Origin: Sinomonas cyclohexanicum
GTDB lineage: Bacteria > Actinomycetota > Actinomycetes > Actinomycetales > Micrococcaceae
Length of the DNA: 64,000 nt
Assembly: GCF_020886775.1 (NCBI RefSeq)
Contig: NZ_AP024525.1
Span: forward strand, 1,116,001 to 1,180,000
Direction: 5' to 3'
The notes beneath the pieces are model-generated. The model had not been told where the DNA came from, ran no database searches, and saw nothing but the letters and a program-made list of their open reading frames with translations. Made by a program: the position numbers and the translations under genes. This document shows, in pieces, positions 49,804-57,391 of this stretch (position 1 is its first letter; each line of letters begins with the position of its first letter).

Positions 49804-51525
49804 TCACACGGCACGGGGGATGAACCGACTCAGATATGCGCGAAGCGTGGGGTCGCAGACATAGACGTACGTGCCGAGCATTCCGCGCGTGAGCAGAACG
49901 CCATAAATATTGACGATGTACTCCAGTAGTTGCTCGTCCGAATACACGATGCCGAGCCGGGGATTGTTCTCCTTGCCCTTCTTGTCGTGATAGTTGCTTC
50001 GGTCCGCCACGATACGCCGCAGTGCGGGGTCGTACGTCAGTTCCGGCCCGATGATGACGCCCGCGTAATTGAGGTCGTACCCCTGCACGGTGTGGATTGA
50101 TCCGACTTCGCTGACCGACTTCGGGGAGTTGATCCAGTCGCGGTCCGTCGAGTTCCAGCGGAGCCTGCAACCGTCGACCTCTATGTCGTACGCCTTCGGG
50201 TTCTTCTTGCTCACCCAGGGCCACGCATAACCGGCGACGAGTCTCGCCAGCTTGGACTCATGCTCCTTCTCACGGATCCTCGTGAGCATGGCCGTCAGGT
50301 CGTCGTAGAGCGCGAACTCGTACTCGCCGAACCCCTGAGGCTGGGGCGCAGAATCAGTGAGCATCGACCGGACGTAGGTTACGTAGTCCTCACCAGCCTG
50401 AAGGCGCATCTGGGTCAGCAGCGGGTACAGGCGGTGGTCGTCCTTCGCCTCTGAGAGCAGAGATTTCATGCGCTCTTTGGGCAGGTCGGCGGGACGAACA
50501 CTTTGGGCGGCATCGACCAGGAAGATCTGATGGTTGCTCTGCTTCTTGATCCAATCGAGCTGGGTCAGGGCATCGTCGTCCGACCCGAACAGGCGCTCGT
50601 TGATCGTCTGGAAATCCCTGTTGCGCACACCCGAGGACTGGTTCGCACGCTGCGAAAGTCTGTGAGCCTCGTCGACGATCAGCAGGTCGTATGGTGTTTC
50701 GCTGAAGCCGACGTCGAACTGCGAAAGGACCATGTCTTTCGTGAGGCCGGGCGTCTTGGCGAAGACGTTTTGGATCGATTGGCGCAGGGACTGCTGAGGG
50801 ACTACGAGCGCCACGCGGAAGTCGCGGAGCAGGTCCGGGTACCCTTCCAGAAAGTACTGGGCGAAGATCGAGTCACTCTCGACGACGTCTTCGTTGTGGT
50901 GAGATCGGATGTCGGTGAGCAGCTTCATGAGGTAGATCGCAACGATGGTTTTGCCCGTGCCCGGGTCACCTTGGATGACGATGGTGCTCGATCGACGGTT
51001 CTCGAGATCCTCGAAAAGGCCCTCCAAGATGTCGTTGACTGCCCCCGCCTGGTCTTGCGTCAGCGCCTTGAAGGGAGAGAGCTTGAAGAGGTCGCTGTTG
51101 ACGATCTGAGGAATCGTCTGGCTGAACATTCCCTCCTTGCGGAGGGTCTCGAAGACTTGGTCGAACGTCTGCTGGTACTGACCTCGGTCGTAGTAATCTG
51201 CATCGGTGATGCCTTCGTTGCGGTTCTCCACCGTGAATCTGCCGTCGCCGGCGAAGAACCGGATGAGGTATGACTCGAGATCGAGGCACGCCGACTTGTT
51301 GAAACGGTCATCTACAATCACTCGAACGGCATGCAGGCCGCCACGCCCGTTGGCGATGTGCTGGGTCATGCGAGTTGCTGCATTCAGCGACTCGCCGATG
51401 TATATGCTGCTGTCGTTGTTCAGCGTGTAGACCACCGGCCAGTTCCGATGGCGCGCGTCCCCATCTGCCCACACCTTGACCGACTCGCTGTCGAGCGCGA
51501 GGCGCTCGATCCTAAAGCTGGTCAT
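49804..51525 (-). CDS. GIY-YIG nuclease fused to a DUF2075 (Schlafen-like) helicase
   Basis: A 573-residue fusion. Residues about 30-90 are a GIY-YIG nuclease: PVVYTLNN, IYIGES, and E84 in LESYLIRFF. Residues about 155-560 are the DUF2075 NTPase: Walker A QGDPGTGKT (185-193), Walker B LLIVDEAHRL (281-290), SIHTVQGYDLNYAGVIIGPE and a C-terminal LLTRGMLGTYVYVCD, as in helicases. ATG 51525 (MTSFRIERLA) has GGAG 9 nt upstream. The first 14 bases overlap the end of the MazG-like gene. Third-position GC is lower than in the core genes. Such fusions often occur in defence islands; the function is inferred. Confidence 0.87.
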   Translation of the reverse strand: MTSFRIERLALDSESVKVWADGDARHRNWPVVYTLNNDSSIYIGESLNAATRMTQHIANGRGGLHAVRVIVDDRFNKSACLDLESYLIRFFAGDGRFTVENRNEGITDADYYDRGQYQQTFDQVFETLRKEGMFSQTIPQIVNSDLFKLSPFKALTQDQAGAVNDILEGLFEDLENRRSSTIVIQGDPGTGKTIVAIYLMKLLTDIRSHHNEDVVESDSIFAQYFLEGYPDLLRDFRVALVVPQQSLRQSIQNVFAKTPGLTKDMVLSQFDVGFSETPYDLLIVDEAHRLSQRANQSSGVRNRDFQTINERLFGSDDDALTQLDWIKKQSNHQIFLVDAAQSVRPADLPKERMKSLLSEAKDDHRLYPLLTQMRLQAGEDYVTYVRSMLTDSAPQPQGFGEYEFALYDDLTAMLTRIREKEHESKLARLVAGYAWPWVSKKNPKAYDIEVDGCRLRWNSTDRDWINSPKSVSEVGSIHTVQGYDLNYAGVIIGPELTYDPALRRIVADRSNYHDKKGKENNPRLGIVYSDEQLLEYIVNIYGVLLTRGMLGTYVYVCDPTLRAYLSRFIPRAV

Positions 51526-51841
51526 GCTTGGTACTCCGCCCCCGGGAACGTTCGACCGGGTACTTCGCCCGAGTGATCTCGAGCTTCTCCAGCACGATGT
51601 CATACGGATCAAGCTCCAGCCTATCGGCTAGGAGCAGGCAATAGGTCAGTACATCCGCCAGTTCGTGGCGAACGGCTGCGATGTCTTGCGGCTGGCCCCA
51701 CTGGAAGCACTCGAGTAGCTCACCGGCTTCGACGGATACACTCTTTGCGAGATTCTCAGGGGAGTGAAACTGGCCCCAATCTCGTTCACACACGAAATCT
51801 CGAAGAACCTGCAAGAGGCGCTCAAGCCGGTCGTTACGCAC
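51512..51841 (-). CDS. MazG-like nucleotide pyrophosphohydrolase
   Basis: A 109-residue all-helical NTP pyrophosphatase of the MazG/RS21-C6 dCTPase group. Motifs: DWGQFHSPENLAKSVSVEAG (EAGEL gives the first acidic metal ligands), ECFQWGQ, then HELADVLTYCLLLADRL, the second ExxxD helix. It hydrolyses non-canonical or damaged nucleoside triphosphates to monophosphates. GTG 51841 is the only start that includes the first helix; no good ribosome site is seen. It overlaps the helicase gene by 14 bp, so the two are made together. The pairing of MazG-like enzymes with DUF2075 helicases suggests one functional unit. Confidence 0.87.
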   Translation of the reverse strand: MRNDRLERLLQVLRDFVCERDWGQFHSPENLAKSVSVEAGELLECFQWGQPQDIAAVRHELADVLTYCLLLADRLELDPYDIVLEKLEITRAKYPVERSRGRSTKHDQL

Positions 51842-53282: not shown

Positions 53283-54845
53283 CTATCGAACGTTGCGCTC
53301 GAAGGCATACTGATATTCCTCTGTGCCGGCTCCGCGCCCGATAGAATTTGGTCCAAATTCCTTTGCGGCGCGATTCATCACTCCAGCAAAACGAGTGATG
53401 GAAGGCAACCGAAGGTCGATTCGTTCGCCGTCGCTTGTGCGCCCCTCCGCAGAGAGGAGCTCGGATCGAGTTAGTCCGTGGGGATTGGGCAGGCACATAA
53501 CTCCTCCCGAGCGTATATATACAGCGCGCTTCGAGAGGGCTCGATGGACGGTCGAGGCCAGCCAGCCATCGAACGCCTTCAGCTGCTCCTGATCGTCTGC
53601 TAAAGGGAAGTAGGACATGATTCCAGGAAAGCGAACTCTTTTAACTTCCCCGCGCTCAAGTTCGCGAACGCGATCCTCGGTCAAGTTGCCGTAGAGATAC
53701 CGTCGTAGCTGCATGATTAAGACCACGTAGTCCCGGTCGACCGACGGCGCGACGCGGACATCGCGCAACGTCCCCGCGCGGGCATCCCTTAGGAGATTCA
53801 TCCAAATGAGGTCTTGGACGCGGTTCTTCATTCGGGCGATCACCCCATCGCGGAGACCTACCTTGCCCCTAGAAAAACGGTATCCAACAAAATTGATTGA
53901 CTCGGTGCTCTGAATTTCGGAGCGTTCTCCGCTTGGTACAAATAGTCGGATTCCGGGTGACTTCTTGGGGTTCAGGGCAGACCCCATTTGTTCACTGGAA
54001 TTTTTGAGTGCGTTCACCGCTTCGCATATTTGACTGTAGTCCCGAGACCAGATGAGGGTGTCGTCCGCGTAGCGAGCAAATCCGACGCCTAGCCGCTCGA
54101 GGGCGCGGTCCAAGTCGAATGCCGCAGCGTTCGCCAAGAAAAGCGAAGCTGCAGTTCCTTGGGGCAGTCCTCTCCGTGGTTTCGATGGATCGATCTGCGC
54201 CTGACTTTCGTATCGGCCTGTAGGCTGGAGTGGGGCGGCAAGAAGGCTCTCAAGGATTCTTTTCTCATGCACACTTACTAAGAAGGGATGCGAGTCAAGT
54301 ACCCTCCAGATGTGATCATGCGAAATTGAATCGAAGAACTTCTTGAAGTCGTATTCTGCAACGAAAATCCGTTCGGAAGTCGAGAACTCGCCGCAAATAT
54401 ACTGGATGGCATCGTGAGTGCTGAGATCACCGCGATAAGCGTACGAGCGGGAGCTCATTAGCGCGCGGTTTTTTTGTAGGAGGCTTGCATACACCTCGCG
54501 CGAAATTAGAGTGTCGGCTATTTGGAAGACGGACACGGTCCTAAATTCCCCATCGGCCTTCGGGATGCGGTGAGCAATCGGTGGTTTCGGGTGGTAGTCG
54601 TCCTTCCGAATCGCGAGGTTCACCGCGCGCACGATGGTCTTCGCCCGCGAGCGCACAACGTACGGGTTGAAGCCGTCGTCGGCGCTCCAGTAGTCGGGGC
54701 GCCTGATGGTGCCTAAGGATTTTGTGGTCGAGCGGCGGTTGCGCCGGACGTCCTCACTTCTGAGCTCTCGGCAATAGCGCTCATGTTTCTGGATGAGGCG
54801 ACGGCACTCCGCTTCCAGCACCTCGACTGTTAGTTCCGGGCGCAT
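53283..54845 (-). CDS. Stand-alone reverse transcriptase, candidate defence RT
   Basis: A 520-residue RNA-directed DNA polymerase. Fingers: RIPKADGEFRTVSVFQIADT (93-112). Catalytic palm: AEYDFKKFFDSI (163-174), SKPRRGLPQGTAASLFLANA (221-240) and FARYADDTLIWS (257-266, with Y259-A-D-D). A C-terminal region of about 230 residues has no maturase or endonuclease signature, and there is no group II intron or retron-like msr/msd seen by eye. It thus belongs to the free-standing RTs, many of which protect against phage (DRT/UG groups). ATG 54845 has AGGAGG at 10 nt, inside a stable hairpin. GC content is clearly lower than the rest of the window. Which UG group it is cannot be told here. Confidence 0.9.
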   Translation of the reverse strand: MRPELTVEVLEAECRRLIQKHERYCRELRSEDVRRNRRSTTKSLGTIRRPDYWSADDGFNPYVVRSRAKTIVRAVNLAIRKDDYHPKPPIAHRIPKADGEFRTVSVFQIADTLISREVYASLLQKNRALMSSRSYAYRGDLSTHDAIQYICGEFSTSERIFVAEYDFKKFFDSISHDHIWRVLDSHPFLVSVHEKRILESLLAAPLQPTGRYESQAQIDPSKPRRGLPQGTAASLFLANAAAFDLDRALERLGVGFARYADDTLIWSRDYSQICEAVNALKNSSEQMGSALNPKKSPGIRLFVPSGERSEIQSTESINFVGYRFSRGKVGLRDGVIARMKNRVQDLIWMNLLRDARAGTLRDVRVAPSVDRDYVVLIMQLRRYLYGNLTEDRVRELERGEVKRVRFPGIMSYFPLADDQEQLKAFDGWLASTVHRALSKRAVYIRSGGVMCLPNPHGLTRSELLSAEGRTSDGERIDLRLPSITRFAGVMNRAAKEFGPNSIGRGAGTEEYQYAFERNVR

Positions 54846-55098
54846 GGGCCAGCCTCCTGTCCGTGTGGAGGCGGCTGGGCCAGGAAAGAAAATACGCTAC
54901 CCGCAGCGAAACTGTTCGGCAGTATCGCCCCAAGCGCTCAACGCGCCAAACCTGGCACCAAGCCTCCCCAGCCCTGCTGGGCCCTGTTATCGTACTACGT
55001 CAGAAGCGAATAGATGGACGTTGTAAAAGCCGGGCCGTGCGCAGGGCAACACGGTGTTGCCGATGGTGCGGACCGCGGCCAGCTGGCAAGGGCCCACT
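54846..55098 (-). ncRNA. Structured leader of the reverse transcriptase, candidate ncRNA
   Basis: Between the RT start and the aldehyde dehydrogenase end there is no reading frame but several hairpins: GCCTCC/GGAGGC (54852-54872, extended by GGGCCA/TGGGCC), which would bury the RT ribosome site; CCCAGC/GCTGGG (54967-54981); and GGCAACAC/GTGTTGCC (55045-55061). Defence RTs such as DRT2 and DRT9 use an ncRNA directly upstream of the RT as template. The structure seen here is compatible with that, but could also be only a translational leader. Confidence 0.4.
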
Positions 55099-56586
55099 CT
55101 AAACCCCCAGATAAACCGTCTTACCCCACGTGTAGAACTCCACCGCACTCCGCCCCTGCTCACGGAACGTGTTCGTCGAGGAGTCCTTCACCCCGCCGAA
55201 CGGGACATTGAGGTCCAGTCCGGACGTGGGGCGGTTGACCTTCACCACACCGGCCTGGGCCCGCGCCGCGAAGTCCGTCGCCAGCGCCAGCGAGTCGGTG
55301 CAGATCCCGGCCGTGAGCCCGTACCGCGACGCGTTCACGGCCGCGAGCCCGGCCCCGTAGTCCGCCACCTCGAGCACGGCGACCACCGGCCCGAACACCT
55401 CCTCGGTCACGATCGGGTCGTCCGCCGCCATCCCGGCCAGCACGGCCGGCGGGAAGAAGAGCCCGCCGACGGGGTCGGCGTCATGCGTCCCGGCCAGCAA
55501 GACAGCGCCACGCGAGACGGCGCCGCGCACGGCGTCGGCGTCCTGCGCGAACTGCGCCTCGCTCACCACGGCACCCATCCGCGCCCCGTCGAGCCCGTCC
55601 CCGGGCGCGTACCCGCCGGCGAGCCGCACGAGCGCGGCGGTGAACGCCTCCCGCACCCCCGGGGTGGCGTACACGCGCGAGGTCGCCGTGCACGCCTGCC
55701 CGGTGAGCCCGAACGCCCCGGCCGCGACCACCGCGGCGGCCGCCTCCGGGTCCGCGTCGTCGAGCACGAGCACGGCGTTCTTCCCGCCCATCTCGAGCTG
55801 CACCCGGGCCCGGCGCCCGTCCAGGATGCCCTTGAGGTGCAGGCCCACGGCCGTGGACCCGGTGAAGGACAGCCCGGCCACGCGCTCGTCGCGGGCCAGC
55901 GCCTCGCCCACTACCCGGCCGCGGCCGTGGACCACGTTGAACACCCCGTCCGGCAGCCCGGCGTCCGTGAGGGCCCGGGCCAGGTGCGTCGCGGACAGCG
56001 GGGTGAGCTCGGCCGGCTTGAGCACCACGGCGTTGCCGGAGATGAGGGCGGGCGCGGCCTTCCACGCCGGGATCGCGATGGGGAAGTTCCACGGGGTGAT
56101 GAGCGCGAAGACTCCCATCGGCTCCCGCCGGGTGGTGATCGTGGTGCCCGGGGTGCCGGAGGGCAGCACGTCCCCGGACGGGGCCCAGCCGAGCGAGCCG
56201 AAGAAGCGCAGCACGTCCGCGGCGCGCTTGACCTCGCCGCCGGCCTCGGCCAGGGTCTTGCCCTCCTCGCGCACGAGGTCCGCGGCCACCTCCCCGGCGC
56301 GCTCCTCGAGCAGGGTCGCGGCCTTGAGCAGGATCGCGCCGCGGGCCGGGGCGGGCAGCGCCGCCCAGGCGGGCTGGGCGCGCACGGCCGCGGCGACGGC
56401 GGCGTCCGCGTCGTCGGCGGTGCCGGCGGGGGAGAGGGCCACCACCTGGCCGGGGCGGGCGGGGTTGGTGCGCTCTGTGGTCGGGGTGCCGGTCCAGGCG
56501 CCGTCTATGAGGTGGCGGGCGACGCCGGGCTCGCGGCCCGCGCTCTCGGCTTCGGTGGCGCTGTGGTCTGTGGCGAGGGTGGTCAT
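55099..56586 (-). CDS. Aldehyde dehydrogenase (NAD(P)-dependent, alpha-ketoglutarate-semialdehyde type)
   Basis: A 495-residue ALDH that oxidises an aldehyde to an acid. Key motifs: FALITPWNFPIAIPAWKAAP, KPAELTP, FTGSTAVG, catalytic Glu in LEMGGKN and Cys in GLTGQACTATSR, and FGPVVAV. The C-terminus ends GKTVYLGV. It resembles the 2,5-dioxovalerate/succinate-semialdehyde group. Last gene of the minus-strand operon; the intergenic gap to the SDR is 28 bp. ATG 56586 follows GGAG. In the pathway it would oxidise the aldehyde released by the aldolase two genes upstream. Confidence 0.92.
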   Translation of the reverse strand: MTTLATDHSATEAESAGREPGVARHLIDGAWTGTPTTERTNPARPGQVVALSPAGTADDADAAVAAAVRAQPAWAALPAPARGAILLKAATLLEERAGEVAADLVREEGKTLAEAGGEVKRAADVLRFFGSLGWAPSGDVLPSGTPGTTITTRREPMGVFALITPWNFPIAIPAWKAAPALISGNAVVLKPAELTPLSATHLARALTDAGLPDGVFNVVHGRGRVVGEALARDERVAGLSFTGSTAVGLHLKGILDGRRARVQLEMGGKNAVLVLDDADPEAAAAVVAAGAFGLTGQACTATSRVYATPGVREAFTAALVRLAGGYAPGDGLDGARMGAVVSEAQFAQDADAVRGAVSRGAVLLAGTHDADPVGGLFFPPAVLAGMAADDPIVTEEVFGPVVAVLEVADYGAGLAAVNASRYGLTAGICTDSLALATDFAARAQAGVVKVNRPTSGLDLNVPFGGVKDSSTNTFREQGRSAVEFYTWGKTVYLGV

Positions 56587-56614
56587 GGGGGCTCCTTCGG
56601 GGAGGGAAGTCAGG

Positions 56615-57391
56615 TCAGAGGCTGCGGATAAGGCCGCCGTCGCACCGCAGCGCGACGCCGGTGATGTACGAGGCGGGCGCGCCGCACAGGAACGCGGCGG
56701 CGGCGCCGAACTCCTCGGGCGTGCCGTAGCGGCGCGCGGGGATGGTCTTGCGCGACTCGAGCTGCACGTCCTCGACGGCGAGGCCGCGGCGCTTGGCCGC
56801 GGCCGCGTCCAGCTCGGCCACGCGGTCCGTGGCGATGCGCCCGGGCAGCAGGAGGTTCACGGTCACGGCGTCCAGCGCCACCTCGGCCGCGAGCGTCTTG
56901 AGGTACCCGGCGAGGGCGGCCCGGCCGGTGTTGGAGACGGCGAGGTTGGGCAGGGGAGCGGTCACGCCGCTGGACCCGACGGCCAGGACCCGGCCCCAGC
57001 GGCGCTTGCGCATGCCGGGCAGCACCCGGGTCACGAGGGCGTGCTGCGGGCGGACCAGGAGGTCGAACGCGCTCGCGAGCTCGTCCGCGCCCATCGCCGC
57101 CGCGGCGCCGGGCTTGGGCCCTGGGCCGTTGAGCACCGCGATGTCCACCGGCGCCCCGAGCGCCTCCTCGGCCCGGTCCACGGCCGAGACCGCGCCCTCG
57201 GGGCACGTGAAGTCGGCGGCGACGGCGACGGCGCCGGGCAGCTCCGCGGCGATCCGCTCGGCCCGGTCCCTGCGCCGGCCGGTGATGGCCACGCGCACGC
57301 CCTCGGCGGCGAGGGCCCGCGCGACCGCGAGGCCGAGCCCGCCCGTGGACGCCGCGACGAACGCGGTGCGGTCCGAGATTCCGAGGTCCAT
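56615..57391 (-). CDS. Atypical short-chain dehydrogenase (SNxxR instead of YxxxK)
   Basis: A 258-residue SDR. The cofactor-binding part is AASTGGLGLAVARALAAEGV, then TGRRRDRA and LNGPGP. At the expected active site the sequence is NLAVSNTGRAALAGYLKTLA: the Tyr and Lys of the YxxxK motif are replaced by N and R (SNTGR). Some actinobacterial SDRs of the FabG-like subgroup have the same SNxxR variant. ATG 57391 overlaps the DapA-like stop by one base, so the genes are coupled. Either a non-classical mechanism or a binding role. Confidence 0.85.
   Translation of the reverse strand: MDLGISDRTAFVAASTGGLGLAVARALAAEGVRVAITGRRRDRAERIAAELPGAVAVAADFTCPEGAVSAVDRAEEALGAPVDIAVLNGPGPKPGAAAAMGADELASAFDLLVRPQHALVTRVLPGMRKRRWGRVLAVGSSGVTAPLPNLAVSNTGRAALAGYLKTLAAEVALDAVTVNLLLPGRIATDRVAELDAAAAKRRGLAVEDVQLESRKTIPARRYGTPEEFGAAAAFLCGAPASYITGVALRCDGGLIRSL

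Follow-up and report, generated by a model that had tools for sequence, protein, structure and literature searches.

The 64,000-nucleotide stretch of Sinomonas cyclohexanicum DNA analysed here (contig NZ_AP024525.1, positions 1,116,001 to 1,180,000; hereafter, the window) very probably carries a two-component DRT9 system, made up of a reverse transcriptase (RT) and a non-coding RNA (ncRNA) that lies immediately in front of it and has a promoter of its own, with the adjoining cysteine-rich ORF as a passenger. Judged by its sequence, the RT is a divergent member of DRT9/UG28, a known anti-virus system. The novelty lies in a DRT9 branch that stands apart and counts two members, characterised by a predicted compact ncRNA and a short putative SL6 hairpin that holds the Shine-Dalgarno (SD) sequence. 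The locus places a two-part DRT9, its RNA included, in a high-GC actinobacterium. Comparison with relatives yields a covariation-supported ncRNA model for an actinobacterial set of DRT9 leaders, and the compact, divergent pair formed by the window and its closest relative, locus L049, would be useful for asking about the minimal poly-dA template RNA.

The RT gene (53283..54845, reverse strand) encodes 520 aa and was assigned to DRT9 (UG28) on profile, structure and motif evidence. The PADLOC Drt9 model matched it with 572 bits (E=2.6e-172), covering residues 8-506, against 98.6 bits for the second-best PADLOC model. In a sequence search of the PDB, a DRT9 chain ranked first (E=3.4e-96), with the next RT at E=8.8e-18. 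NCBIfam returned seven RT models, none of them Drt9 and all seven below cut-off. A preliminary description of this DNA had reported a complete RT devoid of intron maturase or retron identity, and both points hold. The ORF carries the catalytic motif YADD at residues 259-262, as described and in keeping with the YxDD expected of DRT9; the group II RT/maturase equivalog gave 117.3 bits against a cut-off of 300 and the retron St85 model 54.1 bits against 235, with msr/msd looked for via Rfam only. Rfam had no match at gathering score in the whole window or in loci L005, L009, L018 and L049, and none up to E=1 in 54800-55100. DRT2, which PMC12483538 and PMC12489045 describe as an RT with a structured ncRNA upstream, resembles the window in that arrangement but not in RT family, and DRT2 membership was rejected (Drt2 model, 58.2 bits against a cut-off of 390; TM 0.44).

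An AF2 model of the RT, built from 18 aligned RTs (pLDDT 87.2; uncertain at residues 211-221 and in the tail, 505-520), has its N-terminal helix at residues 7-38. When this model was searched against solved structures, the best six were DRT9 chains (TM 0.80-0.85 by query length), while the best non-DRT9 structure, a group II RT, reached 0.57 on the same measure. The window RT shares with the E. coli and Salmonella DRT9 systems (SenDRT9; PDB 9ioa, 9nlv, 9vma) the RT domain layout, YADD, a tyrosine in the N-terminal helix and a C-terminal Y-x-Y. It differs from them in overall sequence (~35% identity) and in the loop ahead of the G-x-PQGT motif, which is longer by 18 residues; a long loop at this place is also found in most aligned relatives (A8 consensus). 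In E. coli DRT9, Y25 stacks on the ncRNA (PMC12489045), and phmmer aligned this residue with Y24 of the window RT, in the N-terminal helix. The priming tyrosines of DRT9 are given as Y496 and Y498 in PMC12483538 and PMC12489045. The C-terminus of the window RT contains Y511-Q-Y513, matching these two in place and spacing, a correspondence of motif and position in a tail that phmmer left unaligned. Across 25 RTs, a C-terminal Y-x-Y was found in 19, YY in one (L017) and neither in five. These five are all from Acidimicrobiia (L002, L003, L007, L011 and L014, two of them near copies), and the U run is still present in the leaders of these Acidimicrobiia systems that have no priming motif.

In the RT tree, the window and L049 (genome G965, same order; 57-58% RT identity) are sisters on a separate deep branch (100/99 support), against which the other actinobacterial DRT9 RTs are grouped (89/86). 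DRT9 is sparse in the family, order and phylum samples at E 1e-60: it was found in 2 out of 394 other family genomes, in 4 out of 395 other order genomes, L049 being one of the four, and in 0 out of 395 phylum genomes, these three draws overlapping. No relatives of the RT were found in phage records at E 1e-20, and one viral contig contained one. The search against plasmids matched 823 records, three of them over 80% of the RT; among the matches listed, most are annotated group II RTs. A Thioclava plasmid (NZ_CP149928.1, 423209-424702, hit H2) encodes a DRT9-like RT that aligns with 98% of the query at 29.9% identity, and a SLATT-domain gene is annotated under the same match too.

The leader comprises the 253 bp that separate the RT start from the stop codon of ALDH (55099), and the preliminary description had presented it as geneless, structured and possibly a template ncRNA. 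The ORF list, with its 80-aa limit, contains no ORF of at least 80 aa wholly within it; a mechanical forward-strand ORF opposite ALDH (55054-56631) overlaps its far end. The leader most likely holds a DRT9-type ncRNA, a candidate RNA at about 54852..54985 of the reverse strand, whose 5' end was set from a -10-like box and SL1. All on that strand, the box, TACGAT, is the proposed ncRNA promoter (54989..54994) and rests on a TANNNT count in leaders. It is followed by SL1 (54970..54983), recognised by the layout shared with relatives and the match to covariance model R2 (see below), and by the 5' strand of the long-range helix P1 (54951..54964), which forms 12 pairs with 54873-54884 in the core fold. 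The inner stems comprise an SL2-like hairpin (54934..54946), placed by eye where the core minimum-energy fold differs, and an SL5-like hairpin of the core fold (54906..54928). A mini hairpin, GC-N5-GC (54896..54904), lies just 5' of the U tract; it was placed by comparison with relatives and the R2 alignment, and both of its pairs are kept in 15/15 relatives (helix 7 of alignment A7). The U tract itself, UAUUUUCUUU (54885..54894), is located by the R2 alignment and compares with U123-126 of SenDRT9, as numbered in PMC12483538; within it, flanked by the inner stems on one side and the P1 3' strand on the other, lies UUUU (54889..54892), the proposed poly-dA template. The 3' strand of P1 (54873..54884) is supported by the core fold and by relatives, and SL6 (54852..54872), seen on inspection of the leader, has 6 bp, its 3' arm GGAGGC being the SD of the RT.

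The order of -10 box, SL1, 5' strand of P1, inner stems, mini hairpin, U tract, 3' strand of P1, SL6 and ribosome-binding site can be traced in the leaders of relatives, with SL1, P1 and gene-start positions chosen by eye. In 23/24 leaders, a TANNNT precedes SL1 by 2-12 nt, against 12/144 equal-width control blocks further upstream, a tally made after the box had been spotted by eye and leaving aside L019 (partial RT) and L003 and L004 (near copies of L002, with the SL1 region replaced in L004). In L004:1-330, this near copy of the L002/L003 DRT9 has its upstream SL1 region swapped for other sequence. As a positive control, we used the E. coli record L057, whose RT aligns end to end with a PDB DRT9 chain (499 residues, 1122 bits). 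The published U numbering (U123-126 or U124-127) puts nucleotide 1 of L057 at 2-3 nt before SL1, which means that the layout also accommodates the studied system at its 5' end and U tract. In L057:1620-1718 and L058:1620-1718, the RefSeq E. coli DRT9 RT has a 33-residue N-terminal extension running through the ncRNA (532 aa, versus 499 aa in the PDB). The window and the E. coli/Salmonella systems have in common a leader directly upstream of the RT, in which SL1 is followed by the U4 tract and then by SL6, a putative one in the window. The predicted window ncRNA is more compact, its U4 lying at about nucleotide 94 counted from 54985, versus the published 123-126 in SenDRT9, and its SL6 differs in having only 6 bp, abutting P1 and containing the SD.

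A first covariance model, R1, built from five leaders, was searched in 22 sources. It matched the leader in 8 other loci (E<=3.4e-4; two are near copies), and at default filters the leaders of L004, L007, L011, L014, L016, L017, L018, L024 and the window went unlisted. Among four further loci, three were matched and L049 was missed, and the window leader scored 8.2 bits with R1 (E=0.017 in 401 nt). Alignment A7 comprises the 15 leaders matched by R1 (L002, L005, L006, L008-L010, L012, L013, L015, L020, L022, L023 and L050-L052), with L003, L004, L007, L011, L014, L016-L018, L024, L049 and the window absent. Both-side changes occur in 26/37 pairs of A7 and 89.0% of cells pair, counts inflated in its favour by A7 having been fitted to the structure. 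None of 500 shuffles reached any of five measures; the covariation score was 0.527, against at most 0.129 in slid versions, whose pairing was at most 45.3%. A subset of 12 leaders (A6) has such changes in 22/37 pairs. Conservation and covariation of the leader at homologous loci, on which the preliminary description had staked its reading beforehand, were thus both found (R1 matches, A7). RNAalifold, which it had proposed as a check, recovered SL1 only, with 6 pairs, on a plain MAFFT alignment of 16 leaders (A1). The MAFFT alignments A1-A3 misplaced P1 and were kept out of the covariation count.

A second model, R2, was made from the 15 leaders of A7, without the window or L049. Its best site over 150 kb was the window leader at 54873-54983 on the reverse strand (17.7 bits, E=0.0078), a stretch inside the candidate ncRNA, and the next site had 8.5 bits; unfiltered over 6 kb, the window leader was matched with E=0.00031. 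At default filters, the leaders of all eight others searched (L049, L007, L011, L014, L016, L017, L018 and L024) were unlisted; in an unfiltered search, the L049 leader ranked first in its own locus (9.8 bits, E=0.03). The match score of the window ncRNA is modest. Together with the A7 covariation, the R2 match bears out the earlier suggestion of a template ncRNA in so far as the leader looks DRT9-like. L049 adds to this picture. Its leader shares with that of the window a 27-nt identical run across SL1 and the beginning of P1, and in P1, 10 pairs are unchanged, 2 are changed on both sides and 0 are broken. Both have a compact leader with an SD-holding SL6; L049 differs in having no adjoining Cys-rich ORF and in that its long-range helix persists in folds extended to the start codon.

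By energy alone, the hairpins of the leader are only modestly better than chance, and their significance comes from the relatives. The 253-nt leader has z=-1.8 (7/200 shuffles as good) and its last 146 nt z=-2.0 (5/200). Of the earlier picture of a structured, geneless leader, the hairpins, including the one holding the SD, and the lack of genes stood, whereas the folding energy lent little to it. The predicted state of P1 depends on the RNA folded. In RNAs ending at 54873 or 54852, 12/12 pairs form with a mean pair probability of 0.93-0.95; in the 253-nt leader, 8/12 pairs are kept (0.84); and P1 is predicted to be lost both in an RNA that begins at 54991 and stops at the start codon (0.11) and in one that begins at 54985 and enters the gene (0.10). 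The L049 helix survives folding to the start codon (0.86), as do those of most relatives, while L006 and L013 lose theirs; for 3/21 cores, the best fold is without the long-range helix. Because P1 varies with RNA length and the relatives differ, single-sequence folding is an unsteady witness, and the case for the ncRNA rests on the family, not on single-sequence folds.

SL6 sets the window and L049 apart. In 22/23 other leaders it has 8-17 bp and lies 13-33 nt before the start codon, the remaining one being L017 (4 bp, 8 nt). The hairpin of the window and L049 has 6 bp, lies 6 and 3 nt before the start codon, respectively, and contains the SD within its 3' arm. A U run directly follows SL6 in 8/25 leaders, the window and L049 not among them. 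PMC12483538 describes the mature SenDRT9 ncRNA without SL6. It could be proposed that, in this branch with its compact ncRNA, a short SD-holding hairpin has replaced the long SL6, so that template RNA and RT mRNA are one transcript and RT synthesis is tuned by ncRNA folding or by RT binding. We consider such autoregulation a tentative and rather unlikely reading. For window RNAs that start at SL1 and extend into the gene, P1 is predicted to give way to another fold, which speaks for it; ordinary SD pairing and the lack of a swap in L049 speak against it. Predicted SD pairing is 0.82 in the window (rank 7/25) and 0.73 in L049 (rank 10/25), in folds starting 140 nt upstream for the window, 142 for L049 and 190 for the others. 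SD masking as a special trait was rejected on this unremarkable rank, and the fold swap as a pair-wide trait was rejected on its absence in L049.

Beyond the sequence anatomy, we infer the mechanism entirely from family membership. PMC12483538 and PMC12489045 describe DRT9 as an oligomeric RT-ncRNA complex that reads the U tract repeatedly and uses a tyrosine of its own as primer; upon infection it produces poly-dA, leading to abortive infection. By analogy with the E. coli and Salmonella systems, the window RT and its ncRNA would form an oligomer, with UUUU held at the active site and read over and over, and a C-terminal tyrosine would serve as primer. Upon phage infection, long protein-linked poly-dA would accumulate and the cell would be halted.

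Three other readings of the RT and its leader were weighed against the two-component DRT9. The preliminary description had raised the possibility of a new defence type outside the UG/DRT groups. The separate deep branch of the window and L049 (100/99) is in favour of a new UG/DRT type, but the DRT9 profile (PADLOC, 572 bits), the DRT9 structures and the diagnostic residues all fit UG28/DRT9, which refutes the idea at the family level, and the window RT almost certainly does not represent one. An ordinary regulatory 5' UTR (attenuator or ribosome-binding-site hairpin) in place of a template ncRNA is likewise a highly improbable reading of the leader. Such a UTR would suit the location of the SD within a hairpin, the folding z of only about -2 and the predicted loss of P1 in RNAs that begin at SL1 and reach or pass the start codon; however, the U tract, P1, mini hairpin and SL1 can be ordered as in the relatives and the E. 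coli system, and the SD pairing (0.82, rank 7/25) is unremarkable. A decayed DRT9, with an intact RT and a degenerate, inactive ncRNA, seems quite improbable as well. The weak covariance-model score, the compact leader, the short SL6 and the alternative fold of the full leader speak for decay, but L049 has the same layout with compensatory changes in P1, and the RT ORF is intact with its diagnostic residues.

As had been described, 150 bp separate the end of a convergent 271-aa ORF, P0002 (52317..53132, forward strand; from the ORF list), from the RT stop, and both genes are GC-poorer (RT 0.562, ORF 0.564) than the window (0.69). P0002 is an orphan with a Cys/His cluster, and near its N-terminus a C-x-C...H...C pattern is reminiscent of a zinc site. 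SLATT proteins are occasional companions of DRT9, and P0002 might similarly be an extra protein of the system, acting as effector or regulator. In favour of this are the proximity, convergence and RT-like low GC of P0002, its location within an apparent defence slot and the sister genome G104, in which P0002 and the RT are both missing. Against it, no homologue adjoins the other DRT9 loci examined, L049 included, which leaves the proposed partnership very unlikely. A tblastn search of L001-L024 with E up to 1 retrieved only the window's own copies and L011 (E=0.15, 60 residues); in L049-L052 the best E was 1.2. In a phmmer search of the ORFs lying up to 3.5 kb away at 23 other DRT9 loci, some on shorter contigs, the best foreign E was 0.32. 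Homologues were likewise lacking in 389 other genomes of the family (E 1e-4), in plasmids at 1e-5 and in viral contigs, and 378 other class genomes gave one weak partial match (21 bits, 85 residues, internal stop). P0002 had no match in PADLOC or NCBIfam, none in Pfam up to E=10 and none in the PDB up to E=1; its one PHROG match was a family of unknown function (E=0.072), and its AF2 model was unusable (pLDDT 32). We therefore read P0002 as a probable passenger, with no sign in these searches of its belonging to DRT9.

The region around the DRT9 segment (~51.8-55.08 kb of the window) looks like a defence slot. Its flank, with a MazG-like gene and a GIY-YIG/Schlafen-type helicase (49804-51841), is 88-91% identical in three sister genomes, and the content beyond it differs; the slot loci compared with the window were L046, L064 and L065. 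In G104, the sequence resumes at 55085 and the slot contains a nuclease/lipoprotein-like cassette, read by eye. G162 carries Lamassu LmuA, B and C, followed by an ALDH fragment, and in G197 a C5 methylase is accompanied by NaeI and a DrmB-like gene. One genomic slot seems to swap DRT9, Lamassu and restriction-modification among sister genomes. In three sister genomes, the aldolase-region DNA (window ~48.8-49.8 kb) recurs as a partial second copy on the left border of the slot (L046:6608-7166, L064:3465-4209 and L065:8400-9064); such a copy was looked for in the window and not found. At the DRT9 locus of L050, a distant relative of the Schlafen-type helicase (L054:2702-4606; 23% identity over the helicase part) starts 477 bp after the RT match.
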